Source: Pseudomonadota bacterium (lineage in GTDB: Bacteria; Pseudomonadota; Gammaproteobacteria; UBA5335). Taken from it: a DNA stretch of 64,000 nt. Below the pieces are notes generated by a model, which was not told where the DNA came from, ran no database searches, and worked only from the letters and a program-made list of their open reading frames with translations. Location of the stretch: contig JAXHTV010000005.1 of assembly GCA_034189865.1 (NCBI GenBank), forward strand, positions 1 to 64,000, in the 5' to 3' direction. This document shows, in pieces, positions 4,122 through 45,648 of the stretch (position 1 is its first letter; the number at the start of each line of letters is the position of its first letter). The translations under genes were made by a program, and so were the position numbers.

Positions 4122-4424
4122 CCCCATGTCCCCCTGGCGTCCCATAGGCACGCTATCGAATGACTCATCCCGAAGCGCCCAAAAAGATATCCTCCGCTAC
4201 AACGTAGCGCAGCCTGATCGCTTACATTTGAGTTAAATCAGATTTCTCTGAATTAACTGGCAGGCGCAGTCGGCGGCGGCGGGAACCATCGGCGACTTAC
4301 GGCCGTACGCTAAAAACCCATTGACCGACGACCCCGCGCCATTCATGATTGCGCGGCCCGGTACATGTGTCGGGCCAGCGGCTTAAGCCGCTGATTGCCC
4401 AAGTGATTCTTCAGGGTGAGCGCC
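4122..4424. promoter_or_regulatory. Intergenic region with tandem palindromes ahead of the GNAT-C39/RimK-like operon
   Basis: This 300-base gap lies between divergent genes. GGCCCG at 4355-4360 pairs with 4371-4376 over a ten-base loop. It is followed directly by the 16-base perfect palindrome AGCGGCTTAAGCCGCT at 4377-4392, 32 bases before the start codon at 4425. A third small repeat, TCAGA-N4-TCTGA, lies at 4238-4251 in an AT-rich stretch that probably holds the promoter, though no good -35/-10 pair is clear. CGCTAC/GTAGCG near 4193-4207 is another short stem. The paired hairpins may be an operator or a leader structure. Confidence 0.45.
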
Positions 4425-5564
4425 ATGCCGTCCCATCGTCCTCAAGCCCTTTCCGATACGTTTGTTCGTCCGGCAACCTGGGCGGATTTGGACGCCTTGG
4501 TCAGGATCGAACAACGTTGTTTCGAAACCGATCGCCTCTCGCGGCGAAGTTTTCGCCACTTTCTCAAGCGCGGGAAGGGTGCGTTTTTGATTTACGACGC
4601 CGGTGACGGCCCCATCGGCTATGCCTTGGTCCATTTCCACGCCGGCACCGCGCTGGCGCGCCTGTATTCCTTCGCCGTGCTGCCCGAAGCCCAAGGCCGG
4701 GGCGTGGGTCGATTGCTGCTTGAGGCAGCGGAAGACGCCTCCCGCGAACAGGGCTGCCTGGCCATCCGGCTGGAGATCCGCCGAGACAACGAGAAAGCCA
4801 AAGCGCTGTACTCAAGCGCCGGTTATCGCGAGCTGGAGCAACTAGAGGACTACTACGAAGATCACGAAGACGCGGTGCGGATGGAAAAGTCGTTGGCGCC
4901 CCAGCCCGACCGCGGTGTCACCCGAGTGCCCTACTATGCCCAAACCCTGGAGTTCACCTGCGGGCCGGCCTCGCTCATGATGGCGATGAAAAGTCTGAAT
5001 CCGGACCTGCCGCTGAGCCGCAAACTGGAACTGCAAATCTGGCGGGAAGCCACCACCATATTCATGACCTCGGGTCTGGGAGGGTGCGGCCCCGATGGTT
5101 TGGCGCTGGCTGCGCACCGCCGGGGCTACGAGGTCGAGTTGATCCTGAAAGACGAACAGGCCTTGTTTGTCGATTCGGTCCGTTCGGCCGAAAAGAAGGA
5201 AGTCATCGCCCTGGTGCATGAAGACTTCAAGGAACAGATTCTCTCCGCCGACATCGCGGTACGCTACGGTGCAGTGCGGGTGGACGAGCTGGAAACGGCG
5301 ATTCGGGAGGGCGCTGTGCCGGTGGTCTTGATCAGCTCCTATCGCCTGTACGGCGAAAAAACCCCGCACTGGGTGGTGGTCACCGATGTGGTCGATGGGA
5401 TCGTCTATCTCCACGAACCCTACGTCGATTACGAGGAAAACCGGACGCCCATGGACTGCATGAATGTCCCCATTTTGAGTGAAGAGTTCGAAGGCATGGC
5501 CCGTTACGGACGCAGCGGTCAACGCGCCGTGGTCATCCTGAAGCGGCACGGAGCGCACGTATGA
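4425..5564 (+). CDS. GNAT N-acetyltransferase fused to C39-like (DUF3335-type) cysteine peptidase
   Basis: 379 residues in two domains. Residues 10-150 are a GNAT fold: PEAQGRGVGRLLLE is the acetyl-CoA-binding R/Q-x-x-G-x-G/A loop, followed by NEKAKALYSSAGY, as in RimI. Residues 165-379 are a papain-like C39-family domain. QTLEFTCGPAS holds the oxyanion Gln and nucleophile Cys (about 179). KTPHWVVVTDV holds the His (about 315), and HEPYVDY the likely Asp. All catalytic residues appear intact. There is no signal peptide, so it acts in the cytosol. The ATG at 4425 follows AGGGTGA; a GTG at 4416 is possible. Its stop overlaps the next start (ATGA), so the two are coupled. It probably acetylates and cleaves a peptide made by the neighbouring ligase (inference). 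Confidence 0.88.
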   Translation: MPSHRPQALSDTFVRPATWADLDALVRIEQRCFETDRLSRRSFRHFLKRGKGAFLIYDAGDGPIGYALVHFHAGTALARLYSFAVLPEAQGRGVGRLLLEAAEDASREQGCLAIRLEIRRDNEKAKALYSSAGYRELEQLEDYYEDHEDAVRMEKSLAPQPDRGVTRVPYYAQTLEFTCGPASLMMAMKSLNPDLPLSRKLELQIWREATTIFMTSGLGGCGPDGLALAAHRRGYEVELILKDEQALFVDSVRSAEKKEVIALVHEDFKEQILSADIAVRYGAVRVDELETAIREGAVPVVLISSYRLYGEKTPHWVVVTDVVDGIVYLHEPYVDYEENRTPMDCMNVPILSEEFEGMARYGRSGQRAVVILKRHGAHV

Positions 5565-7033
5565 GTCGTCACGTTGTGGTCGTCGACCAACCCGCCGAAT
5601 GGCGAGATTACTTGCCCGAGAGCCTGTTGTTGAGCGCCCGTGACTATATCGCGGGCCACGATTTCGGGACCAATCCCACAGTCAAAGTGATCAACCTCTG
5701 CCGCAGCTATCGCTATCTCGGCGTGGGTTACTACGTCTCCCTGCTGGCGGAGGCCCGCCGTCACCGCGTGATTCCCTCGGTGCGGACCATGCTCGATCTA
5801 TCGCGCAAAACCATCTACCAGTTGGTCACCGAAGAGCTCGACGAGGACCTGGCGCGGCATCTGAAACGGCACGAGGAAGACCAAATCAACTTCACCATGT
5901 ATTTCGGTTACACGCAGCAAGCCGATTTGCAGCCACTGGCCAATGTCCTGTTCGACCGCTTCCCGACGCCGATTTTGCACGTGCAACTGCGTCGCAGCGG
6001 CAAATGGCAAATTCACAAGATCACGACCCGGGGACCGGCTGATATCACGACGGATGAGCGCAGCACCCTCACCGACGCCCTCAACAGCTATCTGGGCAAA
6101 CGGTGGCGCGCGCCCAAAGCCCGTGCCGTGTCGCGCTACGACCTGGCGATCCTTCACAACCCGGAGGATACCCTCTCGCCCTCCAACCCCAAGGCGCTGC
6201 AATCGTTCATCCGCGCCGGAAAACGGCTGGGCGTGGACGTGGACCTGATTACCCGGCGGGACTATCCGCAAATCGCCGAGTGGGATGCATTGTTCATCCG
6301 GGAAACCACCAGCATCAACCACCACACGTTCCGCTTCGCCAAACGGGCCGAAGCCGAAGGCATGGTGGTCATCGATGACCCCACATCCATTCTTCGATGC
6401 ACCAACAAAGTCTACTTGGCCGAGCTGCTGCGCACCCATCGGGTGGGCACACCCCGTACAGTCGTGTTGCAACGCGATCGGTCCACAGCGGAAGTGGAAA
6501 AACTGGGCTATCCGGCGGTGCTGAAAATTCCGGACGGCGCGTTTTCTCTGGGTGTGTATAAGGCCAACACGCCGGCGGAATTCGACGAGATCGCCACGCG
6601 TTTGTTCAAAAAATCGGACCTGATTTTGGCCCAGGAATTCCTCCGCAGCGAGTTCGACTGGCGAGTGGGAATTTTAGGCGGAAAACCGCTGTTCGCCTGC
6701 CAGTATTTCATGTCACGCGGACACTGGCAGATCTACCAACACAAGGCTGATGGCCGGTTCGTCGAAGGTGAGGCCCGGACCCTGGCGGTGGAAGACGCAC
6801 CGAAAGATGTCATTCAGACCGCGCTAAAAGCCGCCAATTTGATCGGTGACGGCTTGTATGGCGTCGATCTCAAGCAAACCGACCGGGGGGTGTTCGTCAT
6901 TGAGGTCAACGACAACCCCAACCTGGACGTGGGTGTGGAAGATTTGGTGCTGAAGGACCGCTTGTACCAGATGGTGATCGAAGAATTCGTCCGCCGGCTG
7001 GACCGACAGCAGGAAAAAGCGGCTCGGCGTTAA
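5561..7033 (+). CDS. RimK-like ATP-grasp ligase with RLAN N-terminal domain
   Basis: 490 residues. The N-terminal 200 residues (INLCRSYRYLGVGYYVSLLAEARRHRV onwards) match the RLAN domain, named for its fusion to RimK-like ATP-grasps. From about residue 280 comes the ATP-grasp: NKVYLAELL, then GYPAVLKIPDG with the ATP lysine, QEFLRSEFDWRVGIL, and the metal-binding GVDLK and VIEVNDNPN near 447. It should join an amino group to an acyl phosphate, forming amide or peptide bonds, in the cytosol. It is longer than RimK (about 300 residues) and is not RimK itself. It overlaps the GNAT-C39 gene by four bases, a pairing that suggests peptide synthesis or tagging with processing. The substrate is unknown. 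Confidence 0.88.
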   Translation: MSRHVVVVDQPAEWRDYLPESLLLSARDYIAGHDFGTNPTVKVINLCRSYRYLGVGYYVSLLAEARRHRVIPSVRTMLDLSRKTIYQLVTEELDEDLARHLKRHEEDQINFTMYFGYTQQADLQPLANVLFDRFPTPILHVQLRRSGKWQIHKITTRGPADITTDERSTLTDALNSYLGKRWRAPKARAVSRYDLAILHNPEDTLSPSNPKALQSFIRAGKRLGVDVDLITRRDYPQIAEWDALFIRETTSINHHTFRFAKRAEAEGMVVIDDPTSILRCTNKVYLAELLRTHRVGTPRTVVLQRDRSTAEVEKLGYPAVLKIPDGAFSLGVYKANTPAEFDEIATRLFKKSDLILAQEFLRSEFDWRVGILGGKPLFACQYFMSRGHWQIYQHKADGRFVEGEARTLAVEDAPKDVIQTALKAANLIGDGLYGVDLKQTDRGVFVIEVNDNPNLDVGVEDLVLKDRLYQMVIEEFVRRLDRQQEKAARR

Positions 7034-31895: not shown

Positions 31896-32471
31896 CTACC
31901 CAACCGCTTCACGCTGGTCCGATGCATTGGTAAACAAATCATCTTCCACCAGCCGGTAGAAACTGAATACGCCCCACAAATCTTCGCCTTGCCGGTAGCC
32001 ATAGGCCACGAACGGGCGATAGGGCTCGAGAATCTCGTCGGACCGGTCGACTTTTTGTTTTTGTTCAAACTGGCGAAAGCCCACCACTTCGTCGACCAAC
32101 AGCCCGGCCGAAACATCCGGGTGCTTGATGACGATCAAGCGCACACCGCGCGCATTGGGCACCGTGAGGCGACCCTCCAACAAACAAGCCAGATCGGTTA
32201 CCGGTACCAAGCTGCCACGCACGTTTGCAATACCGCGCAACCAAAGTCGTGCGCCGGGCAATCGCGTTAATGCCGGGCAACGAATCACCTCCCGAACCAC
32301 ATCGCGATCCGCCAGCATCCGGGCACCACCGACGCGAAACCCCAGTCCCGTCCAAACGCCCGGCGCATCAGAACCCGACGCCGTCGGACCCGCCAGCTCG
32401 CGGCTGCGCCGATCGATCTCGATCAAAGCGGAAAATGGATCCAACGCGATTTCAGCAAGGCGAGGCCGCAT
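31896..32471 (-). CDS. pilI: CheW-like coupling protein PilI
   Basis: 191 residues with one CheW domain: GFRVGGARMLADRDVVREVI, RLPGARLWLRGIANVRGSLVPVTDLACLLEG and VRLIVIKHPDVSAGLLVDEVVGF. It links PilJ to the ChpA kinase. The ATG at 32471 lies directly after the pilH stop, so translation is probably coupled. Order and orientation (pilG, pilH, pilI, pilJ, chpA) match Pseudomonas, which fixes the assignment better than sequence alone. Confidence 0.92.
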   Translation of the reverse strand: MRPRLAEIALDPFSALIEIDRRSRELAGPTASGSDAPGVWTGLGFRVGGARMLADRDVVREVIRCPALTRLPGARLWLRGIANVRGSLVPVTDLACLLEGRLTVPNARGVRLIVIKHPDVSAGLLVDEVVGFRQFEQKQKVDRSDEILEPYRPFVAYGYRQGEDLWGVFSFYRLVEDDLFTNASDQREAVG

Positions 32472-32472
32472 C

Positions 32473-32838
32473 TCAGTTCTCTACCACGGCCTTGATCTTG
32501 CGGATCAGTTCAGCCTCGTGGACTGGCTTGACGACGTAGTCGATCGCCCCCTGGCGCAACGCCCAGATACGATCAGTGTCCTGATCTTTGGTGGTCACCA
32601 TGAGAATCGGGATCGACGCGGTCTGTGAATCTTTGCTCAACTTGCGCGTGGCCTGAAAACCACTCATCCCCGGCATCACCACATCCATCAATATGACGTC
32701 CGGATGTTCGGCACGCGCCATCATGATCCCTTCCTCACCGTCATTGGCGACCAGGGTCTCGTAGCCGTGCTTCTGCATGATCTTCTGCAGGACGTATATT
32801 TCCGTGGGTGAGTCGTCCACGATTAATATCCGAGCCAT
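32473..32838 (-). CDS. pilH: Response regulator PilH
   Basis: 121 residues, a stand-alone receiver (CheY-like) domain. ARILIVDDSPTE gives the acidic pocket, VILMDVVMPGMSG the phospho-Asp, and VTTKDQDTDR and YVVKPV the switch Thr and Lys. PilH opposes PilG and, as known in Pseudomonas, acts with the retraction side or as a phosphate sink. It is the second gene of the cluster and starts 58 bases after pilG. Confidence 0.93.
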   Translation of the reverse strand: MARILIVDDSPTEIYVLQKIMQKHGYETLVANDGEEGIMMARAEHPDVILMDVVMPGMSGFQATRKLSKDSQTASIPILMVTTKDQDTDRIWALRQGAIDYVVKPVHEAELIRKIKAVVEN

Positions 32839-32896
32839 TGAATCCCCATCTCCGGTTTATGCCCTTGCTCCGTCAACCCGTGTCCCGCCCTGCCCG

Positions 32897-33304
32897 CTAG
32901 TGCCGGACGTATTGTCGAATCGCACCGACCAATTCATCGCCGGTGAAAGGTTTAGTCAAGTACTCTTCGGAACCCACCAATCGGCCCCGGGCGCGGTCAA
33001 ACAACCCATCCTTACTGGATAGCAACACCACCGGGACGTCGCGGAACATTTTGTTCTGTTTGATCAGGGCGCAGGTTTGATATCCGTCGAGTCGAGGCAT
33101 CATGATGTCGGCAAATATGATGTCCGGTTTGCGCTCGGCGATTTTGGCCAGCGCTTCGTAGCCGTCTGTGGCACCCACAACGGTGCACCCCTGCTTCTGC
33201 AGAATGGTCTCTGCAGTTCGTCGAATGGTTTTACTGTCGTCGATCACCAGTATCGTCAGGCCGGCCAACTCGCCGCCGGTGTCGTTCCCGTCCGCTTCAG
33301 TCAT
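32897..33304 (-). CDS. pilG: Response regulator PilG
   Basis: About 135 residues from the ATG at 33304, preceded by GGAG with a six-base spacer. It is a receiver domain with a short N-terminal tail (MTEADGNDTGGELAG) typical of PilG. LTILVIDDSKTIRR, IIFADIMMPRLDG (phospho-Asp), VLLSSKDG and YLTKPFTGDEL are conserved. It is the output regulator that stimulates pilus extension and cAMP signalling in Pseudomonas. The start codon overlaps, as ATGA at 33301-33304, the stop of an open frame running in from 33531, so pilG may be coupled to a small upstream gene. Confidence 0.93.
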   Translation of the reverse strand: MTEADGNDTGGELAGLTILVIDDSKTIRRTAETILQKQGCTVVGATDGYEALAKIAERKPDIIFADIMMPRLDGYQTCALIKQNKMFRDVPVVLLSSKDGLFDRARGRLVGSEEYLTKPFTGDELVGAIRQYVRH

Positions 33305-33531
33305 TGCCCGCTCCGAACCATCATCGATAACTTGTTCATGCCCCAAACAACGCCACGTGGCGAAAGAATCTCGATGCGCTCCCGGTCATAACAAAAGTCA
33401 TCGTCGACAAGCCGGGCTGCGGGGGAAAACTCGATCAACGTCATGCTTCGCGTTCCAAAGCGGAAAGGACTGTCGACAAACCGAAAAACACCCTTATAAA
33501 ACCGAATGTTACGTCGATACGGAGGCGACAT
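33301..33531 (-). CDS. Possible small protein gene coupled to pilG
   Basis: An open frame of 76 codons (ATG at 33531, a second ATG near codon 30) ends at 33301, its TGA overlapping the pilG start as ATGA. The C-terminal part (MTLIEFSPAARLVDDDFCYDRERIEILSPRGVVWGMNKLSMMVRSGQ) reads like folded protein rather than random sequence. There is no convincing ribosome site, no family I recognise, and the frame stays open further upstream without protein-like sequence. It may be a real small gene or chance. Confidence 0.35.
   Translation of the reverse strand: MSPPYRRNIRFYKGVFRFVDSPFRFGTRSMTLIEFSPAARLVDDDFCYDRERIEILSPRGVVWGMNKLSMMVRSGQ
33473..33500 (+). promoter_or_regulatory. Candidate sigma-70 promoter for gshA
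   Basis: TCGACA (33473-33478) is a five-of-six -35 box, and TATAAA (33495-33500) a five-of-six -10 box, with a 16-base spacer. It points towards gshA, about 110 bases upstream of its start, within the divergent region between pilG and gshA. It overlaps the possible small minus-strand ORF. Confidence 0.45.
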
Positions 33532-33610
33532 GAGATGAAAAATTCGTGGGATTCCCGGGACGATGCCCGGTATCATAGTCCGACACCGCGGCCATAGCAG
33601 GAAAGGTTTC

Positions 33611-34906
33611 ATGATGCCGAGCACTCCCAGAACTGTGCCGAATATGAGCGCCGAGCTACGCAAGCCGGTTTTGCAGATCGAAGCGTTGTTGCTGGAAAAG
33701 CAAAGCTTGATCGAGTCTTGGTTCCGCAAACACTGGTTGCACACGCCCCCGCCCTTCTATGCATCGGTCGATCTTCGCAATGCCGGCTTCAAACTGGCGC
33801 CGGTTGACACGAATCTTTTTCCGGCAGGCTTCAACAATCTCGATTCGTCCTGCCATCCGCTTTGTATTCAGGCCGTTCAACGAGCCATCGAGCGCCATTG
33901 CCCAACCGGTCGAAACATCTTGATCGTGCCCGAGAGCCACACCCGGAATCTCTATTATCTAGAGAGCTTGGCCGCTTTGGCGTCCATCGTTGAGCGGGCC
34001 GGCTTCGATGTACGTATCGGCTCCTTATTGACAGACTTGAACGGAGCCCAGACCATCGATTTGCCCTCTGGAAACCAGGTCACACTGGAACCACTGGAAC
34101 GTCACGGCGACCGCTTGAGCGTGAACGATTTCCAGCCCTGCATGATTCTGCTGAACAACGACTTGTCGAAGGGAAATCCGGCAATATTCGCCGGGCTCCA
34201 ACAGCCCATTCAGCCACCGCCGGTCCTGGGTTGGACTCAGCGAACCAAATCGGGACATTTCGAGATCTACCGCGAAGTTGCCGAAGAGTTCGCCGATCTG
34301 GTCGGCATGGACCCCTGGTTGATCGATCCGTTTTATCGCAGTTGTGGCCGAATCGATTTTCTCAAGCGCGAGGGCCTCGATTGTATGGCCCATAACATCT
34401 CCAGCATGTTAGAGATGATCGGAGAAAAATATCGTCAATATGGGATCGACAAAGTGCCGTTCGTCATCGTCAAGGCCGACGCCGGCACCTATGGCATGGG
34501 GATTATGACGGTGACCGAACCCGACGACATCTACCGTCTCAGCCGAAAACAGCGAACCAAAATGAGCTCGGCCAAAGAAGGATTATCGGTCGACCGCGTG
34601 CTGATCCAAGAAGGCGTCTACACGGAAGAAACATGGGGGGAGAACGGGGCGGTCGCCGAACCGGTGGTGTACATGATCGATAACGCGGTGGCCGGCGGAT
34701 TCTATCGGGTTCACGAAGAGCGCGGACCCAACGAGAACCTCAATGCACCGGGCATGCGTTTTCAGCCGCTCGCCTTCGGCGAATCCTGTATCACACCGGA
34801 CAAGCACTTAGACCCGGATGCTGAACCGAATCGATTTTATGCCTATGGCGTGATCGCCCGCTTGGCCCTGATCGCGGCGGCCCGAGAGTTGGCGACCAAA
34901 ACCTGA
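33611..34906 (+). CDS. gshA: Glutamate-cysteine ligase, Acidithiobacillus-type family
   Basis: About 431 residues, from the ATG at 33611 with AGGAAAGG just upstream. It is not like the 520-residue E. coli GshA. It follows the rare family first defined in Acidithiobacillus (Thiobacillus) ferrooxidans: LLEKQSLIESWFRKHW, VDLRNAGFKLAPVDTNLFPAGFNNL, and late PFVIVKADAGTYGMGIMTV with a glycine-rich ATP loop, then RVLIQEGVYTEE. It makes gamma-glutamylcysteine from Glu and Cys with ATP, the first glutathione step. gshB follows after 26 bases, completing the pathway. The family name rests on my reading of these segments. Confidence 0.88.
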   Translation: MMPSTPRTVPNMSAELRKPVLQIEALLLEKQSLIESWFRKHWLHTPPPFYASVDLRNAGFKLAPVDTNLFPAGFNNLDSSCHPLCIQAVQRAIERHCPTGRNILIVPESHTRNLYYLESLAALASIVERAGFDVRIGSLLTDLNGAQTIDLPSGNQVTLEPLERHGDRLSVNDFQPCMILLNNDLSKGNPAIFAGLQQPIQPPPVLGWTQRTKSGHFEIYREVAEEFADLVGMDPWLIDPFYRSCGRIDFLKREGLDCMAHNISSMLEMIGEKYRQYGIDKVPFVIVKADAGTYGMGIMTVTEPDDIYRLSRKQRTKMSSAKEGLSVDRVLIQEGVYTEETWGENGAVAEPVVYMIDNAVAGGFYRVHEERGPNENLNAPGMRFQPLAFGESCITPDKHLDPDAEPNRFYAYGVIARLALIAAARELATKT

Positions 34907-34932
34907 AGCATTCAGCGCGAGGAGATCTTGTC

Positions 34933-35883
34933 ATGAGCATCCGTGTCGGGGTCGTAATGGACCCGATCGCCCATATCAAACCGCATAAAGACACCACGTT
35001 GGCCATGCTCCTGGAATGTCAGCGGCGCGACTGGAACATGCGTTACATGGAGCTCGACGACCTCTACTTGAATGATGGAAAGGCTTTTGCCCGACAACGC
35101 CCGCTGCAAGTCCGCGACAGCGACCGCGACTGGTTCGAATTGGGCGAACCCGACGAAAGCCCGTTGAGCGATCTGGACGTCATCCTGATGCGGAAAGATC
35201 CGCCGTTTAACATGGAATATATCTACGCGACCTACATCCTGGAACGAGCCCAAGCCGAAGGCGCCTTGGTGGTCAACCGGCCCGAGAGCCTCAGGGACGT
35301 CAGTGAAAAGGTCTACACCGCCTGGTTTCCCCAGTGTTGCCCCCCCACCTTGATTACACGCGACATGGGCCGATTGCGCCATTTCGTTCACGAACAGCAA
35401 GAAGTGGTCGTCAAACCTCTGGACGGGATGGGTGGCGCTTTCATATTTCGAATCACACACGGCGACATGAACACCGGCGTGATCCTGGAAACACTCACCG
35501 ACCACGGCCGACGCTATGCCATGGCACAACGGTACATTCCCGCGGTACGAGAGGGTGACAAACGCATTTTGCTAATTGACGGCGAACCGGTTCCGTATGC
35601 GCTGGCGCGCATTCCGGCTGCCGGCGAAGCGCGTGCCAACCTGGCGGCCGGCGGAACCGGAGAAGGCCGTGAACTCACCGAGCGCGACCGATGGATCTGC
35701 GAGCAGGTCGCCCCCATACTTAAGAAGAAAGGGCTGCTCTTCGTGGGCCTGGACGTGATCGGTGACTACCTCACCGAAATCAACGTCACCAGCCCAACCT
35801 GCGTGCGTGAGCTGGACCGGCAATATGGCATCACTATCAGCGCCCGATTCATGGACGCCATTGAGCAGCGGCTGGGCGCGTGA
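34933..35883 (+). CDS. gshB: Glutathione synthetase
   Basis: 316 residues, the usual proteobacterial GshB size. The ATP-grasp protein opens RVGVVMDPIAHIKPHKDTTLAML, the family N-terminus. LMRKDPPFNMEYIYATYILE, VVKPLDGMGGAFIFRI (ATP loop) and FVGLDVIGDYLTEINVTSPTCVREL (Mg-binding Glu/Asn) are diagnostic. It adds glycine to gamma-glutamylcysteine. The gene follows gshA and precedes the TonB-like gene, the same neighbourhood (gshB next to the pil-chp genes and tonB3-algH-ruvX-pyr) as in Pseudomonas. Confidence 0.97.
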   Translation: MSIRVGVVMDPIAHIKPHKDTTLAMLLECQRRDWNMRYMELDDLYLNDGKAFARQRPLQVRDSDRDWFELGEPDESPLSDLDVILMRKDPPFNMEYIYATYILERAQAEGALVVNRPESLRDVSEKVYTAWFPQCCPPTLITRDMGRLRHFVHEQQEVVVKPLDGMGGAFIFRITHGDMNTGVILETLTDHGRRYAMAQRYIPAVREGDKRILLIDGEPVPYALARIPAAGEARANLAAGGTGEGRELTERDRWICEQVAPILKKKGLLFVGLDVIGDYLTEINVTSPTCVRELDRQYGITISARFMDAIEQRLGA

Positions 35884-35987
35884 CGGTCTGTGTCCCCTCA
35901 TCTTTCCGGATGACCTCTACGCAATGGATCACAACAGACTGTCCGCCACTGGCCGATAACCCGCGTGGACAGACATCCACTTGACCC

Positions 35988-36962
35988 ATGAGTACTTTGA
36001 TTCGCGAACCGGCAACCCCACCAGCCACAGTCGAAATCGGTAGCGGTGATCGCTTAGCGACCACGTTGTTCTTTGCCGCTCTGCTGCACGGCTTGGTGAT
36101 CCTCGGTATTGGCTTTTCCGGCGAACCGGTGCGCATGCCGTCCGCCCTAAATTCGAAGCTCGAGGTCACGCTCATCAAAGGACAGAGCGGCGAGACGCCC
36201 GACGATCCCCAGTACCTAGCGCAGATCGACCAAACGGGCTCCGGCAACACCGAAGAGATGCGACGCCCCCGCGGTGCGATGCAAAGTCAGTCAGTGGTGG
36301 AAAACGAAGGCATTCCCGACGCCAACGACGTCCTCAGCGAACTGGCGGCGAGCGAAGAAAATCCCGATCCCAACACCCCCGAAGACCTCCCCAGCCCGAG
36401 CAGCGAGCAAATTCTCACGCAAACTGCAGACGATCGCCGGGAGATGGACTCGAGCCCCCAAACCAGCGCCGCAGATCGCAGCCAAAGCACGCGGGTGGCG
36501 CGGTTAATCCTGCAAAGCGCCGACAATCTGGATCTGAGCGCCGAGAACACGCCCGAAGCGCTGACCACGGCCAAGCAACCCCGTGTCAAACGCATTGCCG
36601 TCAACACCAAATCGAATGTCTACGCGCCCTATCTTTACTATTGGCGTCTGAAAATCGAGGAAGTGGGCAACCTCAACTTCCCCGACGAGGTGCTCCGTCA
36701 AGGCCTGCACGGTGATGTCACGGTGGAAGTCTCGATCAAACAGGACGGCAGTTTGGAGCAAGCCCGGGTGGTGGTGCCGTCCCCACATCGTCTGCTCGAC
36801 GACGCGGCACTACGAATCCTGTATCTGGCGGCACCCTTCGCGCCGTTTTCCGAGGAAATGCGCGCGGAAGCCGATACGGTTCGGTTCGTGTGGAAATGGC
36901 GCTTCCTACCGGGCGACGATGGCACCCCCCGCGGCACGGGCAAAGTCTACGCCGACTCCTAA
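35988..36962 (+). CDS. tonB3: TonB-like energy transducer
   Basis: 324 residues. There is one N-terminal membrane helix (ATTLFFAALLHGLVILGIGFSG), then a long Asp/Glu/Pro/Ser-rich periplasmic linker (residues 55-190). The C-terminal TonB domain reads YAPYLYYWRLKIEEVGNLNFP, GDVTVEVSIKQDGSLEQARVVVPS, DDAALRILYLAAPFAPF. The position between gshB and algH equals that of Pseudomonas PA0406 (tonB3), which is needed for twitching and pilus assembly there. A pilus role alongside the Pil-Chp cluster is therefore likelier than iron uptake. The symbol is by synteny. Confidence 0.85.
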   Translation: MSTLIREPATPPATVEIGSGDRLATTLFFAALLHGLVILGIGFSGEPVRMPSALNSKLEVTLIKGQSGETPDDPQYLAQIDQTGSGNTEEMRRPRGAMQSQSVVENEGIPDANDVLSELAASEENPDPNTPEDLPSPSSEQILTQTADDRREMDSSPQTSAADRSQSTRVARLILQSADNLDLSAENTPEALTTAKQPRVKRIAVNTKSNVYAPYLYYWRLKIEEVGNLNFPDEVLRQGLHGDVTVEVSIKQDGSLEQARVVVPSPHRLLDDAALRILYLAAPFAPFSEEMRAEADTVRFVWKWRFLPGDDGTPRGTGKVYADS

Positions 36963-37026
36963 TCGGCGCATCCAAGCGGGACATCGATGGCTTGTCAGTG
37001 CCAGAAACGCCCCCTACTATGAGCCT

Positions 37027-37590
37027 ATGCCCGAATCGCACTTTCTCATCAACCAATATCTGATCGCCATGCCGGGACTGGCAGACCAGAACTTCGCCAA
37101 CACCGTCACCTACGTCTGCGAACACAGCGAAGACGGTGCCCTTGGCATTGTGGTCAACCGTCCCTCCGAGTTGCACCTGAGCGATCTGATGCGGCAGATG
37201 GATCTGGACCCGCCGGCCAACGAACGTTTCGATCCCATCATTTTTCATGGGGGGCCGATGAGCCCTGAGCGCGGTTTTGTGTTACACCCGCGCGAGTACG
37301 AATGGGAAGCGACCATCCACGTCAGCGGTGATGTCAGCGTCAGCAGTTCCCGGGATGCACTGATCTCCATTAGCCGTGGTGATGGTCCCAAAGACTATCT
37401 GATTTCATTGGGGTACGCCGGATGGGGCCCGGGTCAGCTGGAACAGGAAATTTTGAGCAATGCGTGGCTCAATGTCCCCGCAAAAACCGAAATCATGTTT
37501 CAAACACCCGCCACGGAACGATGGCAAGCTGCGGCCGCGTTAATCGGTATCGATCTCGATCGACTCAGCAGCGACGCCGGTCATGCCTGA
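37027..37590 (+). CDS. algH: YqgE/AlgH family protein
   Basis: 187 residues from the ATG at 37027; the frame is open upstream inside the TonB gene but not coding. LINQYLIAMPGLADQNFANTVTYVCEHSEDGALGIVVNRP is the family signature, with HGGPMSPERGFVLH and GYAGWGPGQLEQEI also conserved. The biochemical function is unknown; in Pseudomonas it was named for an effect on alginate regulation. It is followed by ruvX with an eight-base overlap, the widely conserved yqgE-yqgF pair. Confidence 0.95.
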   Translation: MPESHFLINQYLIAMPGLADQNFANTVTYVCEHSEDGALGIVVNRPSELHLSDLMRQMDLDPPANERFDPIIFHGGPMSPERGFVLHPREYEWEATIHVSGDVSVSSSRDALISISRGDGPKDYLISLGYAGWGPGQLEQEILSNAWLNVPAKTEIMFQTPATERWQAAAALIGIDLDRLSSDAGHA

Positions 37591-38005
37591 AACTCAAAGC
37601 ACCGGGACCATAACGACCGTGCTGGGCTTCGATTACGGCCGCAAACGGATCGGGGTGGCCGTCGGCCAAACCCTGACCGGTTCGAGTCGTGCCCTGACCG
37701 TCCTGAAGAACGACGGCAACCCTTCATGGCAGTCGATTCAGGCACTCATCCAAGAGTGGTCACCCAACGCCCTGGTGGTGGGCCTGCCCCTGTTGGCTGA
37801 CGGCACCCGGGGAGACATGGCCAAGGCGGCGCAACGATTCGCTCGCACCTTGGCGGAAAAAACCGGCTTGCCAGTGACAACCGTCGATGAGCGCCTGACC
37901 AGCTGGGAAGCGGATCACGCTATTCGGGAGAGCAAGGAGCGCGCCGACCGTGATGCCGTCGCCGCCAGTTTGATCGTGGCCACCTATCTGCAGGGCCGCG
38001 CATGA
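37583..38005 (+). CDS. ruvX: Holliday junction resolvase-like protein YqgF/RuvX
   Basis: 140 residues of RNase H fold. VLGFDYGRKRIGVAVG carries the first catalytic Asp, VVGLPLLADGT the middle strand, and TTVDERLTSWEAD with its Glu and Asp the rest of the active site. In E. coli the protein acts in processing the 5' end of pre-16S rRNA, and it was first proposed as a resolvase. It overlaps algH by eight bases and pyrR by four (ATGA), so these are one transcript. Confidence 0.95.
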   Translation: MPETQSTGTITTVLGFDYGRKRIGVAVGQTLTGSSRALTVLKNDGNPSWQSIQALIQEWSPNALVVGLPLLADGTRGDMAKAAQRFARTLAEKTGLPVTTVDERLTSWEADHAIRESKERADRDAVAASLIVATYLQGRA

Positions 38006-38523
38006 TTCTCCGGGATGCCAACGCCGTCCACCGGCTGATTACGAACATGGCTGAGGCCATCGCCGAGCGGTACCGCAATGAACCCGAACCACTGTTGATA
38101 GGCATCCATACCGGTGGTTTGTGGGTTGCATCGGAGCTTTACCGACTCCTGGCCGAGCCGTTGCGTTTGTCCGATCCCTTGGGCAGCCTGGATATCAGCT
38201 TCTATCGCGATGATTTTGCGCGAATCGGTGTTCATCCCGAAGTCAAACCGTCCCACCTTCCGTTCTCGGTCGACGAGCGGGAAATCATCCTGGTTGACGA
38301 TGTCCTCTACACCGGTCGTACGGTCCGGGCCGCCATGAATGAAATTTTCGACTATGGACGGCCCGCGGCCATCCGGCTTGCTGTTCTGATCGATCGCAAC
38401 GGCCGCGAACTGCCCATCGCCGCAGATGTGGTCGGCGAACACTACTCGCCCGCGCCCGACGAACACATTAAACTGATCGGACCTTCGCCACTTGAAGTGC
38501 GCCTGAAGCACGCGCACGGTTGA
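38002..38523 (+). CDS. pyrR: PyrR-type uracil phosphoribosyltransferase/regulator
   Basis: 173 residues. The PRPP-binding loop is clear: REIILVDDVLYTGRTVRAAMNE. LIGIHTGGLWVASELYRLL and DISFYRDDF match PyrR. In Gram-positive bacteria PyrR binds pyr mRNA and controls attenuation; in Pseudomonas pyrR lies upstream of pyrB as here. Because the gene is overlapped by ruvX and pyrB follows after 21 bases, no long leader for classical attenuation is present. Uracil salvage or another regulatory mode is likely (inference). Confidence 0.93.
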   Translation: MILRDANAVHRLITNMAEAIAERYRNEPEPLLIGIHTGGLWVASELYRLLAEPLRLSDPLGSLDISFYRDDFARIGVHPEVKPSHLPFSVDEREIILVDDVLYTGRTVRAAMNEIFDYGRPAAIRLAVLIDRNGRELPIAADVVGEHYSPAPDEHIKLIGPSPLEVRLKHAHG

Positions 38524-38544
38524 TCAAGGCTGCAATCAAATCAC

Positions 38545-39516
38545 ATGAGTCGACAAGTCGATGAAACAGGGCACCTGCGCCATTTGTTGAGTATCAATGG
38601 CCTGGACCGCCAACTGATCACGGCCATCTTAGACACTGCAGCCTCGTTTATGTCCGTCACCGAGCGGGCAGTCAAGAAAGTGCCCCTGTTGCGCGGAAAA
38701 ACCGTCGTCAACTTATTTTTCGAGCCCAGCACGCGTACCCGCATGACCTTCGAGCTGGCCGCCAAACGGCTGTCCGCCGACGTGCTGAATCTCGATGTGG
38801 AACACTCGTCGACACGCAAGGGCGAAACCCTGCTCGATACCTTGCGCAATCTGGAAGCCATGCACATGGACATGCTGGTGGTCCGCCACGCCGAAAGCGG
38901 AGCCGCTGACTTTTTCGCGCAATACTGCGCACCCCATGTCGCCGTTTTGAACGCCGGTGACGGCCGCCACGCGCACCCCACGCAAGCACTGCTGGATGTT
39001 TTCACCATTCGGCGCCACAAACCGAATTTCGAACAACTCACCGTCACGATCGTCGGTGACGTATTGCACTCCCGTGTGGCCCGCTCCCAGATTCAGGCGC
39101 TTCGGACACTGGGCGTGCCGAACATCCGAGTGGTCGCCCCGCGTACCCTGTTGCCCACCGGCATCGAACACATGGGCGTGGAATCCTTCGACCATTTAGA
39201 ACCGGCCCTGAAAGACTGTGATGTGATCATCGCCCTGCGACTGCAACGCGAGCGCATGGTGGGCGCACATTTACCCAGCGAAGCCGAATACTTTCACTAC
39301 TACGGACTCACTCACGAGAAGCTGGCCCTGGCCAAACCCGATGCCGTCGTCATGCATCCCGGGCCGATCAACCGCAACGTTGAAATCGCCTCCGATGTGG
39401 CAGACGGCCCCCGCTCACTGATCCTGGAACAGGTATCAAACGGCATTGCCGTCAGAATGGCGGTGATGGCGATGGTGCTCGGCCATCGCACACCCGCGCC
39501 GGAGATCGCCTCGTGA
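38545..39516 (+). CDS. pyrB: Aspartate carbamoyltransferase catalytic subunit
   Basis: 323 residues. The carbamoyl-phosphate loop is [48 protein letters not shown] and [17 protein letters not shown] follow, all catalytic signatures. It condenses aspartate with carbamoyl phosphate in pyrimidine synthesis. The Pseudomonas enzyme is a dodecamer with the inactive dihydroorotase PyrC', and the gene after this one, overlapping by four bases, is just such a protein. No pyrI regulatory subunit is present. Confidence 0.97.
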
Positions 39517-40772
39517 ACCGGATCACCGTACAGGGGGGGCGCGTCATCGACCCGGCAAACCAGGTCGACCAGATACAGGATGTCCATATCGCCGATGGAA
39601 AAATCGTTGCCTTGGGTGCGCGGCCGGACGGTTTCACGACGGATCGGATGATAAACGCCGAAGGGCGGTGGGTGATCCCGGGTTTGGTGGAGTTATCCGC
39701 ACGACCCGCCTCATTGGCAGCGGAATCCCACGCCGCGGTGGCCTCGGGAGTCACCACGCTGTGTATCCCACCGTCAGCCAAACCCTGTATCGACACCCCC
39801 GCCGAGGCGGAACTTTTGTATCTGCGCGGCCGACAAAGTGACGCCGCCCGTGTCTATGTGATCGGGGGCTTGACCCAAAACCTCGATGGGGAGCGGTTGA
39901 CTGAGATGGGCGCACTGGCGGCGGCCGGCTGCGTGGCTTTGAGCAACGATCGACGACCGGTCACCAATACGCTGGTATTGCGGCGGGCATTGGAGTATGC
40001 AGCCAGCCACGGACTGACCGTGTTGTTATACGCCAAAGATCCCTGGCTCCACCAACAAGGCTGCGCCCACGAAGGGCCCATCGCATCACGGCTGGGACTG
40101 CCCGCGATCCCCATCGCCGCGGAAACCGTCGGCCTGGGTCGCGACCTGGCACTGGTGGAACTGACCAAAGCGCGGGTGCATTTTTGCCGGCTCTCCAGCA
40201 GTGAAGCGGTTGAGATGATTCACGCAGCCCGCGATCGTGGGCTGCCCGTCAGTGCCGATGTCGCCATTCATCATCTTTATTTTTGCGATGAAGATTTGGA
40301 TGGTTACGACCCCAACTTCCGTGTCGACCCGCCGCTTCGCAGCAGCAACGACCGGGATCGCCTGCGCCGAGGCGTTGCTGAGGGAACCTTGTCTGCCATT
40401 TGTTCCGATCACGAGCCGTTAGGTGATGACGCCAAACGAGCACCATACCCCCAAGCTTTGCCGGGTATCTCCGGAATCGAAACCTTGCTTTCGCAGACCC
40501 TGGCCCTGGCCAAACACAACTTGATGCCGCTGAGCACCGCCATTGCCCGGGTCACCTGTGACCCCGCCGCGATTCTCGGCTTGGAGCTGGGTCACCTCGC
40601 GGTCAGCGCCGCCGCCGATCTGTGCGTGATCGACCCTGATCGACAGTGGTCGTTTTCAGTGGAATCTCAGCGCAGTGCCGGACACAACTCTCCGCTCATC
40701 GGCCGGACCATGACGGGGGTGGTCACCCACACGCTGGTCGGCGGACACTTGGTTTATCAACACGAGGGATAG
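39513..40772 (+). CDS. pyrC': Dihydroorotase-like protein, probably inactive (PyrC')
   Basis: 419 residues of the type I dihydroorotase fold. The N-terminal strand [26 protein letters not shown] and late [29 protein letters not shown] fit the family. The metal motif D-x-H-x-H after VIPG is missing: the sequence reads [15 protein letters not shown], with no His pair. [14 protein letters not shown] retains some residues. This matches the non-catalytic PyrC' of Pseudomonas (PA0401 type), which holds PyrB in its complex. A true dihydroorotase should be encoded elsewhere. The ATGA overlap with pyrB supports co-assembly. Confidence 0.9.
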
Positions 40773-40781
40773 GACGAGAAC

Positions 40782-41675
40782 ATGGCTTCGGATCGCCGTT
40801 CCCGCGGAACCATTCACCTGGAAACCGCCGAAGTGGTCGCCCACACGCACCACGAAGGCGACCAACACACGCTGGTGCTGCACGCACCGAATTGCGCGCA
40901 AAAAGCGCAACCGGGAATGTTCGCCCACCTGCAATGTGATCCCGCCACCGCCATGCGCCGTCCATTGTCGATCATGCGGGTCTCTCCGGACCAGGGTTGG
41001 GTGGAATTCCTATATAAATCCGTGGGCCACGGCACGCGGCAACTGAGCCAACGGCGGCCGGGCGAGACCCTGAGCCTGCTCGGCCCCATCGGAACACCGT
41101 TTAGCATGGAACGCTCGCGCCCGCGCCCGCTGCTCCTGGGTGGCGGTGTCGGCATTCCACCCATGGTCTTTTTGGCCGATCATTTCCGGCGCGACCGGGA
41201 ACAGTGGACGCCCCTGGCCATTTTCGGCTCGGAAGTCCCGTTCCCATTCACCCTGCGCCCATCCCGGATCCTATTGCCGGAGATGCCGTCAGACGTCATC
41301 GCCGCCATGCCGATGCTGGAAGACTGGGGCGTGCCCTCGCGACTAACCAGCACCCAAGGCTATCAAGGGTGCCACAACGGGTATGTCACCGACCTCGCGC
41401 GGTATTGGCTTCACGCTTTGGATTCCGACCAGCGGCGTGAGGTGGAAGTTTATGCCTGCGGCCCCACGCCGATGTTGGCCGCAGTGGCGGCTCTGGCGCG
41501 CGAATTCGTCTTGCCCTGCCAAGTGGCCCTGGAGGAATTCATGGCCTGCGCCGTGGGCGGATGCGCCGGTTGCGTGGTGGAGATCCAAACCCCCAGCGGC
41601 CCGGCGATGAAACGGGTCTGCGTCGACGGACCGGTGTTCGACGCACACGCTGTATTCCCATCGACAGCAAAATGA
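40782..41675 (+). CDS. pyrK: PyrK-like dihydroorotate dehydrogenase electron-transfer subunit
   Basis: 297 residues of the ferredoxin-reductase family. MRRPLSIMRVS binds FAD, PLLLGGGVGIPPMVFLADHF binds NAD, and a C-terminal 2Fe-2S cluster is held by EFMACAVGGCAGCVVEI with a fourth Cys in KRVCVDGPVFD. This is the PyrK pattern, which passes electrons from class 1B PyrD to NAD. AGGACGAG lies just before the start. It closes the pyr operon nine bases after pyrC'. No pyrD is in the window. Most gammaproteobacteria use the quinone-linked class 2 PyrD without PyrK, so its presence here is unusual. Confidence 0.9.
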   Translation: MASDRRSRGTIHLETAEVVAHTHHEGDQHTLVLHAPNCAQKAQPGMFAHLQCDPATAMRRPLSIMRVSPDQGWVEFLYKSVGHGTRQLSQRRPGETLSLLGPIGTPFSMERSRPRPLLLGGGVGIPPMVFLADHFRRDREQWTPLAIFGSEVPFPFTLRPSRILLPEMPSDVIAAMPMLEDWGVPSRLTSTQGYQGCHNGYVTDLARYWLHALDSDQRREVEVYACGPTPMLAAVAALAREFVLPCQVALEEFMACAVGGCAGCVVEIQTPSGPAMKRVCVDGPVFDAHAVFPSTAK

Positions 41676-41801
41676 CCCAGGTCAAACGACACACTTACAC
41701 GTTACCGTATTAATAAACGCTGATGTCACCGTTGATCCATGTGCGGACAAGAACGGCGGCTAAACTGTGATCGAAGCGAAGCAACGACAAGAGAGAACGT
41801 G

Positions 41802-42260
41802 ATGGATCCGGTGAAATTATATCAAGGACTTAGGCAATACCTACGAGTTTCTTATGATCTAAGCGAGGTGGAAGGATCGGAAATCGACGTGGGAGAGGAT
41901 TTTGCAGTGAAATTCCGCCTCACCAATGACGCGCCGAGCCCCATCGGCGATTCCAACCCCATCGTGGTGTTCAAAAATCCACGCATCGTGGTCTCCGCGA
42001 CGGATTTCGCCACACCCCTCGCCGAAGGCGAGCCGACAGCCCCGATAACGGTTGCGTTCGACAAAGACAATCTCCGCCCCGGCGAATTCACTTTCGCGGA
42101 AGTCAAAATGCGTGCGATCGCCAATATGGGAGGGCTGGAGGATACGTTCCGACACGAGCAAGTGGCCAAAGCCAAAATCTATGCGGATCTGGATCTGGAG
42201 CTGTTTTTCCAGATGCGTTATAGCAAAGCGGTGTTTGAGGAAATCCACGCCAAGCGTTAG
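41802..42260 (+). CDS. Protein of unknown function, predicted beta-sandwich
   Basis: 152 residues from the ATG at 41802, supported by GAGAGAACGTG just upstream. There is no signal peptide and no membrane segment. MDPVKLYQGLRQYLRVSYDLS leads into alternating strands (DFAVKFRLTNDAPSP, VVFKNPRIVVSATDF, APITVAFDKDNLRPGEFTFAEVKMRAIANMGG) like an Ig or CARDB fold, ending in a helix. The early codons are less GC-rich than its neighbours. I do not recognise the family. It lies about 125 bases after pyrK and converges with waaF across a hairpin. Confidence 0.65.
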   Translation: MDPVKLYQGLRQYLRVSYDLSEVEGSEIDVGEDFAVKFRLTNDAPSPIGDSNPIVVFKNPRIVVSATDFATPLAEGEPTAPITVAFDKDNLRPGEFTFAEVKMRAIANMGGLEDTFRHEQVAKAKIYADLDLELFFQMRYSKAVFEEIHAKR

Positions 42261-42269
42261 TGCCCGGAC

Positions 42270-42295
42270 GGCGATTGCGCAGATGCACAATCGCC
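42270..42295. terminator. Hairpin between the unknown gene and waaF
   Basis: GGCGATTG (42270-42277) and CAATCGCC (42288-42295) pair perfectly over ten bases, in the 38-base gap between converging stops. There is no T-run. A bidirectional terminator by position. Confidence 0.5.
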
Positions 42296-42298
42296 GCA

Positions 42299-43333
42299 TC
42301 ATTCGAAACGTTGCAGGCGGACCAAAACCTCATCGGGGCTAATCTGGCGCAAGCAGTTGGTGTGACCCAGCGGGCAACGGCGCTCGAAGCACGGGCTGCA
42401 ATCCAAATGTAGCCAGATGGTTTCCGCCTGTGGCGCCAGTGGCGGCGTGTAGTCGGGTGTGGAGGAGCCGTAAATGGCCACCAGCGGCACACCGACTGCA
42501 CCGCTGACGTGCATCAATCCCGAATCGTTGGTCACCACGCGCCGACAGGCTGCCAGAAGATCGACGGCATCGACGAGTTGAGTCTGCCCGCACAAATTGC
42601 GCGCGCCATCACCGGCTAACTGAGCGACGCGTTCCCCAAGCGCAGTTTCTTTCGGCGAGCCGAACACCCACACCCGATCCCCCATGGCAATGCGCCGCTT
42701 GGCCAAGTCGGCGAAATACTCAAGCGGCCATTGTTTGGCGGGACCGTACTCGGCCCCGGGTATCAGCGCCGTGACGGACCCTGCCGCGTCGGCCGACAAT
42801 CCCAGGCAATCGATCAGCCGCCGCTGATTTTCCGTGTCCACCTGCAGTGCGGGTGTCGGAATGGGAATGGGCAAATCTTCATCCGCGGCCAAACCCAGAT
42901 TCACAAAACGCTGCACGGTCTGGGTCAGACGCTTCTTGTCGAGTGGGCGGATATCGTTCAACAAGCCCCGGCGTAACTCCCCGAGATAACCGGTCCGCCG
43001 CGGTATGCGCGCGAAAAAGGGCGTAATGGCTGACTTGAACGAGCGAGGCAAGACAATGGCCTGGTCATATTGGCGGGCGCGAAGCCGACGACCGAGATCC
43101 CGGCGCACGGAAAACTGAAACTGGCCGTGCCCCAACGGCATCTCGATGCCCGCGCGCACTTCCGGCATCCGCGCGAGCAGCGGCAAAGACCATTTGGGGG
43201 CCAATACGTCGATGGCGACACCGGGGTGCCGAGCGCGCAGCGTTTTAAACAACGCTTGGGCCATCACCATATCGCCCACCCAGGCCGGCCCTACCACCAG
43301 GATGGCCGAGGCTTTGACTTCCGATTCAATCAT
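42299..43333 (-). CDS. waaF: ADP-heptose:LPS heptosyltransferase II
   Basis: About 344 residues from the ATG at 43333, overlapping the end of hldD by eight bases; GT9 family. [22 protein letters not shown] opens the N-terminal Rossmann fold. [22 protein letters not shown] is the diagnostic heptosyltransferase II segment, and [34 protein letters not shown] the ADP-heptose site. C-terminal Cys-rich [20 protein letters not shown] is typical of WaaF. It adds the second heptose to the inner LPS core at the inner-membrane cytoplasmic face, using ADP-heptose from HldD. Confidence 0.95.
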
Positions 43334-44279
43334 GGGCCGCGCGGGCATCTAACCATTGCAGGTAGGCAGGGACACCTTCCTCGACCGTCAAAAAGGACTG
43401 ATCGTAGCCCACCGCGCGCAAGGCACTGATGTCGGCTTCGGTGAAGCTCTGGTAACGCCCTTTGAGATGGTCGGGGAACGGAATGTAGCGAATCTTACCG
43501 CGTTCGTGATAGCCGACCACCGCCCGCCCCACATCGTTAAAGGTTTGGCTGCGACCGGTGCCCACATTGAAAACGCCGGATCGGTCCGGATGGGCCCAGA
43601 ACCACAAGTTCACACGCACCACGTCGTCGACGTGGATAAAGTCCCGGCGCTGTTCGCCATCGCCGTAGCCGTCACAACCGGCGAACAGCCGGGCCTCGCC
43701 GGAATCCAAAACCTGCTGATGTAGATGATACGCCACGCTGGCCATGCTGCCCTTGTGCTGTTCTCTGGGACCATAGACATTGAAGTAGCGAAAACCGGCA
43801 ATCTGCGACCGCGCGTCCGATAGCTTTCGGCGAACATACTGGTCGAATAGAAACTTGGAGTAACCGTAGACATTCAAAGGCGCTTCAAAGGCGCGATCTT
43901 CTTTGAAAGTGGGTCCGGCGCCGTAAACGGAAGCGGACGATGCATACAAAAAGGGGATACTGTTGCCAAGGCAATACGCCAACAGCCGCTTAGAATAGGC
44001 GAAGTTGGTATCCATCATGTAGGCACCATTCCACTCGGTGGTATCCGAGCACGCACCCTGATGAAAAATCACTTCAATATCCCGATACCGGCCCGCGTCC
44101 AGGCCCGAGATAAATGCGTCTTTGTCTTCGTAGTCCTGAATGTTGCAGTCGGTGAGATTGACGAACTTGGTGCCATCGCGCAGATCGTCGACGACCAGGA
44201 TGTCTTCCCGCCCCTGATCGTTCAGTGCCCGAACCAAATTGCTTCCGATGAATCCGGCTCCGCCGGTGACGACAATCAT
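43326..44279 (-). CDS. hldD: ADP-L-glycero-D-manno-heptose 6-epimerase
   Basis: 317 residues of the extended SDR fold. [20 protein letters not shown] is the NADP-binding glycine motif, [11 protein letters not shown] carries the catalytic Ser, and [14 protein letters not shown] the Tyr-x-x-x-Lys. [11 protein letters not shown] and [23 protein letters not shown] are typical of HldD. It makes ADP-L,D-heptose for the LPS core. It overlaps the glycosyltransferase upstream by four bases and waaF downstream by eight, so the three are coupled. Confidence 0.97.
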
Positions 44280-45343
44280 GGATGTAGATCCCCTTTGGCC
44301 TCTGGAGTCTTATTCAAAATCTGCCGGTATATCGCGAGGTAACGCTGGGCCATCACACCAGGCTGAAAAGACTCCGCCACTGTCCGTGCGCGGTCGCCAA
44401 ACGCCTGGCGCAGTGCGGAATCATGGTACAGATCGGACACAGCCTCAGCCAAAGCGGGTCCGTCTCCGGGCGGCACCAATCGTCCATTATCGCCGTCAGC
44501 GATCAACTCGGGTATCCCGCCAACGCGGCTGGCCACAATCGGCAAACCGAAGGCCATGGCATCCAGCAGAATCGAACCCAAACCCTCCTCGCGCGACGGA
44601 AAGACGAACATATCCATCACCGCCAGGTAATCGCCGACATTGTTGACGTACCCTTCGAAGACCACATTGTCCAGCCCGGCTGCCTGCGCCCGCAAGCCGG
44701 CGGCATCCGCGCCATCCCCGATCAGTAGGAAAATCATCTTCGGACAGGTGGTTTTCAACCGGCGTGCAGTCTCGATCAGTACCGACTGACCCTTGTGTTT
44801 GTCCACCAGCGCGCCCACGTGCCCCACCACAAAGCGGCGATCAAACCGCCTACGCAGTTCTGCCAAGCGCGCCGCATCGGTTTCCAACGCACTGCTGGCG
44901 GAGGGAATCACCGGCGGATCTAGCCGCGCATCATAGTGTAGGAGGGTGTCGCGAACGGCCTGGGATATGGCGACCACCGATGCGGCATTGAGGTAGACCG
45001 ACCGGGTGAGCCGATTCGATTTCAGGGGATTGGGCACCCGCCGGGTGACCACATAGGGTAAACGGCGAAGGCGGTGCATTTGATAAGCCAGATGCGCCGC
45101 CTTGGCTTCATGTGCGTGGACGAGCTCGCACGCGGTGCGGCGCAGTGCCTGCCGAAAGAAGGGACGATTTGCCTCACGACACGCCAGCTCCGGGACGTCC
45201 GCCAGCCGGGTGGTCAGAGGTTCGCCGGCGCGCGCAATCAATGTCTGCTGGATGCCTCGCGCCGCCAAGGCCCGAATCAGCAACTCAGTTTGTCGCTCGC
45301 CGCCGCGATAACCGCGCGCCAGATTGATATGGCAAACATGCAC
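44276..45343 (-). CDS. Glycosyltransferase family 4 protein (LPS-core or related glycan)
   Basis: 355 residues of GT-B fold. [26 protein letters not shown] is the acceptor-side N-terminus, and [24 protein letters not shown] begins the donor domain. [33 protein letters not shown] is the EX7E donor-binding motif of GT4. Its place between ilvE-side genes and hldD-waaF points to LPS core synthesis, but sugar and acceptor are unknown. It lies 30 bases after the zinc-finger gene. Confidence 0.9.
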
Positions 45344-45373
45344 CGTTCAGCAACCGGCGAGCGAACCGCCTGC

Positions 45374-45598
45374 TCAGTCCACCAAACGAAAGACGGCGCC
45401 GCAGTAAATGCATCGCGCCTCGTCGCCCGCATGCTTTAGCGGAATGTAAACCCGAGGATGGCCGTTCCAGAGACTGGCGCCGGGCACCGGACAGTAAATC
45501 GGCAAGTCAGCGTGAGTCACCTCGTAGGTCGTCTCGGCCGCCGGTTGCTTGTCCCCGACACGCGGTTGTTCAACGTTCAGTTCGCCCGCCTCACTCAC
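45374..45598 (-). CDS. Small zinc-finger protein (zf-CHCC type)
   Basis: 74 residues. The C-terminal half, LPIYCPVPGASLWNGHPRVYIPLKHAGDEARCIYCGAVFRL, has the C-x-H-x-C-x2-C layout of the zf-CHCC family, the fold of mitochondrial NDUFS6. The bacterial proteins are widespread in Proteobacteria near ilvE and LPS genes, with unknown function. Soluble; 50 bases after ilvE. Confidence 0.88.
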   Translation of the reverse strand: MSEAGELNVEQPRVGDKQPAAETTYEVTHADLPIYCPVPGASLWNGHPRVYIPLKHAGDEARCIYCGAVFRLVD

Positions 45599-45648
45599 CT
45601 TCGCTCTCTCCAGATCCGTTTAACTTTGGCCCGTATGATGGGTCTTGC

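Follow-up and report, generated by a model that had tools for sequence, protein, structure and literature searches.

An acetyltransferase-peptidase fusion gene (gene A) and a RimK-like ligase gene (gene B), coupled by a stop/start overlap in a 64,000-nucleotide stretch of a gammaproteobacterial contig (referred to as the window), form a two-gene set whose conservation extends over more than 100 genomes and which can move between Proteobacteria as a unit. The GNAT acetyltransferase, not the C39-like peptidase domain, is the constant partner of the ligase, and the C39 half has been lost repeatedly; the core of the system therefore consists of ligation and acetylation, to which cleavage is an optional addition. 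Quite possibly, if short of probably, the two genes work in the cytoplasm as a module that produces a small N-capped peptide, with a ligase, an N-capping enzyme, and an optional peptidase as its parts. The features are as follows.

4416-5564, + strand: gene A, GNAT acetyltransferase plus DUF3335 (C39-like peptidase), from profile matches
4416-7031, + strand: unit of 2,616 bp common to the window and genome G157 at 95.6% identity with unrelated flanks, from sequence comparison
4491-4826, + strand: RimI/Ard1-like GNAT domain, residues 26-137 of A (PF00583, 63.6 bits)
4926-5543, + strand: DUF3335/C39-like peptidase domain, residues 171-376 of A (PF11814, 289.8 bits)
4941-4943, + strand: Gln176, predicted oxyanion-hole residue, invariant in 65 aligned relatives
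4959-4961, + strand: Cys182, predicted nucleophile, invariant in 65 aligned relatives
5076-5078, + strand: Leu221, His in 64 of 65 relatives in the alignment
5367-5369, + strand: His318, predicted catalytic His, invariant in 65 aligned relatives
5415-5417, + strand: Glu334 at the predicted third triad position, Asp in 65 of 65 relatives in the alignment
5561-5564, + strand: ATGA stop/start overlap coupling A to B, from the sequence
5561-7033, + strand: gene B, RLAN plus RimK-like ATP-grasp ligase, from profile matches and comparison of the model with RimK
5636-6076, + strand: RLAN domain, residues 26-172 of B (PF14401, 165.8 bits)
6404-6928, + strand: RimK-type ATP-grasp domain, residues 282-456 of B (PF08443, 37.3 bits)

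Profiles and sequence confirmed the gene positions, strand, domains, and ATGA coupling given in the initial annotation, and the window genome holds one full copy of each gene. Gene A may start at GTG 4416, from which residues are numbered here, or at ATG 4425, which has an SD-like GGGTGAG just upstream; the Cys179 and His315 first named for the C39 domain were counted from the latter and correspond to Cys182 and His318. The PF11814 match (E 1e-86, cut-off 25) spans profile positions 1-206 of 206, and the AlphaFold model of A has a mean pLDDT of 90.1. In structure searches, the GNAT half of this model matched Ard1 (Z 23.2, 150 residues, 2.0 Å) and RimI 2cnm (Z 22.8, 147 residues, 2.2 Å), which are enzymes acetylating alpha-amino groups. 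Its score against TIGR01575 (rimI) was 88.4 bits, barely above the NCBIfam cut-off of 86.4, and its fusion to C39 makes a RimI-type specificity for S18 doubtful. The Foldseek and VIA lists for A held GNAT folds throughout, with the C39 half barely probed and no C39 match among them. Profile comparison related the C39 half to the stand-alone C39 protein of the type II loci described below (hhalign probability 95.8) and also to C39_2.

The C39 domain had been called apparently intact, which stands for Gln176, Cys182, and His318 but not for the two positions where the window copy carries Glu334 for Asp and Leu221 for His. Both substitutions recur in the G157 copy of A, while three further members of the window's own family have Asp and His at the respective positions. 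The spacing typical of C39 enzymes, 16 residues after the His and within a DP motif, suggests position 334 as the triad acid, and Glu may still serve in this role. Between the window and G157, dN/dS (NG86) was about 0.07 for C39, 0.22 for GNAT, and 0.10 for gene B; the altered C39 domain is therefore under purifying selection and being kept, which speaks against a dead domain despite the Asp to Glu change. Judged by their residues, the active sites of both the C39 domain of A and the ATP-grasp domain of B look usable.

The RLAN N-terminal domain initially assigned to gene B was corroborated by a PF14401 match (cut-off 25) over profile positions 1-149 of 150. The ATP-grasp residues K283, K322, D436, E448, and N450 are invariant in two alignments of 39 and 69 sequences, so that neither catalytic site of the pair is disrupted as far as these residues and the C39 Gln, Cys, and His are concerned. 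In the AlphaFold model of B (mean pLDDT 85.3), the nearest structure to the ATP-grasp half was RimK (Z 28.8, 272 residues, 2.4 Å), with LysX/ArgX at a Z of about 27.5; the fold-search list was filled by this domain, with RLAN barely probed and no RLAN match. Gene B scored 80.2 bits against TIGR00768 (RimK alpha-L-glutamate ligase), under the NCBIfam cut-off of 143.4; its fold and ATP-grasp residues nevertheless agree with RimK.

That the two proteins belong together, as the initial annotation supposed, is borne out by co-occurrence, adjacency, and their transfer and loss as a unit. With full-length DUF3335 counted at E below 1e-70, 229 genomes of the class contained RLAN in 50, DUF3335 in 34, and both in 33, and 398 genomes of the phylum contained them in 72, 58, and 57, respectively; RLAN thus accompanies DUF3335 in 33 of 34 and 57 of 58 carriers. 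The association has a Fisher p of 4e-26 (class) and 1e-53 (phylum), a calculation that takes the genomes to be independent although they are not. The two lie within 3 kb of each other in 53 of the 56 genomes compared, 32 times co-oriented and 21 times in opposite orientation. Among 40 class loci fetched, a full GNAT-C39 gene stood beside RLAN in 26 and GNAT alone in two; ten had all or some of the type II set, one had none of these, and one was cut by a contig end. In a sample of 80 named RLAN loci (Pseudomonas, Azospirillum, Chromatiaceae, Rhodanobacter, Dyella, and others), 47 had GNAT-C39, 28 GNAT alone, and five neither, so that GNAT adjoins RLAN in 75 of 80. Together, the profile scores of A and B and their conservation as two genes are far beyond chance. 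Outside this pattern, one genome without an RLAN match (G239 C2:203188-203802) encodes DUF3335 in a 235-residue frame and hence without GNAT. Viral contigs gave nine matches, mostly ATP-grasp without the RLAN part; one of these contigs (L221, 5001-6161) codes for an ATP-grasp of the RLAN type whose N-terminal part is shortened, with helicase-like genes as neighbours.

The surroundings of the pair hold little that is constant. Neither a precursor gene nor an exporter adjoins it, as first observed, and the conserved third neighbour or short precursor ORF that the initial annotation proposed to look for did not emerge: beside the pair there is no conserved third gene family beyond local synteny and no conserved small ORF of at least 45 residues. 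Upstream in the window, 1644-2708 encodes a protein with Peptidase_Mx and zinc-ribbon domains (PF15887, PF10005), a putative zinc metallopeptidase, which is not found beside the pair in relatives of the window's family. In the families concerned, graspetides are established as products of ATP-grasp ligases and leader cleavage as a function of C39 domains; B might accordingly modify a ribosomal precursor from which C39 removes the leader. Such a RiPP maturation is disfavoured to the point of being very improbable, given that precursor and exporter are both missing beside the pair, that C39 is dispensable, and that the transferred unit comes without a precursor. Searches with PADLOC models returned no family at E 0.001 for A or B, and an anti-phage defence system was rejected.

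The loss of C39 can be followed on the RLAN tree, where the GNAT-only label needs eight changes, at least six of them forced by well-supported branches; hence the C39 half is facultative. The initial proposal that ligation, acetylation, and cleavage are combined in two proteins to make or edit a small peptide or modify a protein therefore holds as far as the partnership of A and B goes, but the three activities differ in how essential they are, and the pair may make or edit such a product with cleavage optional. This history also bears on a different chemistry for the C39-like domain, namely that of an acyltransferase or transpeptidase following BtrH or phytochelatin-synthase logic, in which an acyl-enzyme would be passed to an amine and A and B together would extend a peptide. 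The best, though weak, matches of the C39 half to PDB profiles were of the BtrH N-terminal type (E 0.013) and a C39 domain (E 0.014), and a survey of papain-like proteins puts DUF3335 close to PF09778 (PMC10318531). The Gln-Cys-His arrangement is, however, also that of C39 peptidases, and a domain lost repeatedly while GNAT and ligase are kept is dispensable for core synthesis, which makes this alternative improbable.

Type II loci form one sister clade on the RLAN tree (support 100). Instead of GNAT-C39, these loci combine RLAN with a C39 protein that stands alone, a ligase of the GCS2 family, and a protein resembling N-formylglutamate amidohydrolase. On a plasmid record of Legionella adelaidensis, the genes for RLAN, the GCS2 ligase, and the amidohydrolase follow the type II order. 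An RLAN gene without a GNAT neighbour occurs on the P. aeruginosa plasmid pZYPA1927 (record 32471-45931), where the gene order (pagP, aat transporter genes) resembles that of a chromosome in spite of the plasmid location. The exact site reported for PA1345 sits about 69 bp upstream of this gene, and PA1345 is therefore very likely an RLAN protein. Control of that site by CpxR rests on the motif only and was not seen in DAP-Seq (PMC12802237). Cpx control of the pair was rejected, as the strict GTAAA-N4-8-GTAAA motif was found in only 16 of 224 loci, without a consistent place upstream.

Transfer as a unit is seen directly in G157, a genome of another bacterial family that matches the window only over the shared unit, with neither flank similar. 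The flanks in G157 instead match those of the sister species G233 on both sides (90-92%), and G233 retains only a 203-bp broken and frameshifted start of A; with both flanks so matched and this remnant in place, contamination as the source of the G157 copy was ruled out. In G157 the module has a G+C content of 0.597, whereas the 2-kb flanks have 0.50-0.52; in the window it has 0.596, in line with 0.58-0.60 in the flanks there. Transfer from a window-like lineage into the genus of G157 is therefore the likelier direction.

In the best reading, the product would be a small non-ribosomal peptide, and the pair would work like the synthesis of NAGGN without belonging to it. B would use ATP to activate a carboxylate for coupling to an amine, and the GNAT half of A, which is RimI-like, would acetylate the precursor or product at its free alpha-amino group. 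The C39-like half would serve as a hydrolase, itself optional, for trimming or recycling the product. This last role can be likened to that of RimB acting on the product of RimK, and an aminopeptidase may do likewise in the NAGGN operon. As the simplest account, this combination of ATP-grasp ligation and alpha-amino acetylation, with a hydrolase as an option, has a chance of being correct that falls somewhat below even. The analysis establishes domain identity, active-site conservation, pairing, unit transfer, and C39 dispensability, as well as the pairing of the same ligase in type II with glutamate-type small-molecule enzymes; also in favour of this reading are a transferred unit that holds A and B only and the lack of a conserved third gene or precursor. 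What we infer are the substrates, the sequence of reactions, and the choice of a small peptide over a protein as the target. Against it stand the five of 80 named loci and PA1345, which have B without an adjoining GNAT gene, so that acetylation may be non-obligatory or supplied in trans.

RimI and RimK, the nearest relatives of both catalytic halves, act on ribosomal proteins, and this kinship would point equally to a protein target. B could then add amino acids to the terminus or a side chain of a conserved host protein, with GNAT capping the tail and C39 removing it, in the manner of RimK and RimB on ribosomal S6. A target that every host possesses would be consistent with the lack of a precursor gene travelling with the pair, the nearest structures are RimK and RimI/Ard1, and RimB reverses RimK (PMC11957791). 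Still, the GCS2 and N-formylglutamate amidohydrolase-like enzymes of type II suit small molecules, and the genome already has a RimK-like gene beside a PF05618 gene elsewhere; we therefore regard modification of a protein tail as unlikely, albeit worth keeping in view. Returning to the small-peptide reading, a bolder form of it, which we put forward as a possibility only, is that the product of the pair belongs to a hitherto undescribed class of N-acetylated peptide metabolites that differs from both NAGGN and poly-glutamate. About a fifth of the sampled phylum genomes have the ligase, which would be joined by either of two end chemistries: GNAT in type I, or a GCS2 ligase and an N-formylglutamate amidohydrolase in type II.

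RLAN is mostly adjoined by GNAT or GNAT-C39 in the class and phylum genomes that carry it, and identifying the product of a two-gene unit without any other conserved partner would assign a role to two Pfam families together that are so far uncharacterised. No product of the RLAN/GNAT-C39 pair was found in the literature searched. Nor were the measured co-occurrence, the repeated C39 loss, type II, or the bare-pair transfer, in a scope without the 2009 amidoligase survey (Iyer et al.), and parts of these may be known.

Both families are known already, as is the GNAT-DUF3335 (PF11814) peptidase C39 fusion (PMC10318531), of which gene A is a full-length member that differs from its aligned relatives in the Glu334 and Leu221 described above. 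Gene B is likewise a full-length member of the RLAN-RimK ATP-grasp proteins (PF14401; "RimK family protein" at NCBI; PA1345), although PA1345, on the plasmid copy examined, lacks the adjoining GNAT-C39 gene seen in the window. The same logic of N-acetylation, ligation, and a peptidase is found in the NAGGN pathway (AsnO-Ngg with a peptidase; PMC8070244), where GNAT acetylation and ATP-grasp ligation are combined as in A and B. Ngg, however, is a single GNAT-ATP-grasp chain needing AsnO, whereas B has RLAN and no TIGR03103 match. Membership in NAGGN was rejected, since A reached 24.7 of 569 bits against TIGR03103, B was not listed, and a true NAGGN synthetase (804 bits) lies elsewhere in the window genome; an osmolyte role is therefore not needed to fill a gap, a point that counts against the small-peptide reading. 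RimK-RimB and RloABC resemble the pair in joining a RimK-type ligase with an opposing peptidase, but RimB/RloA is retropepsin-like (PF05618) rather than papain-like and comes without GNAT. No PF05618 retropepsin was found among the neighbours of B, and the PF05618 genes of the window genome lie elsewhere, on contigs C31 and C1. Several amino-acid ligase systems thus coexist in this genome (a NAGGN synthetase, a RimK-like gene with PF05618, and another PF05618, on C17, C31, and C1). With a separate NAGGN synthetase and separate PF05618 genes in the same genome, the pair is neither of these systems.
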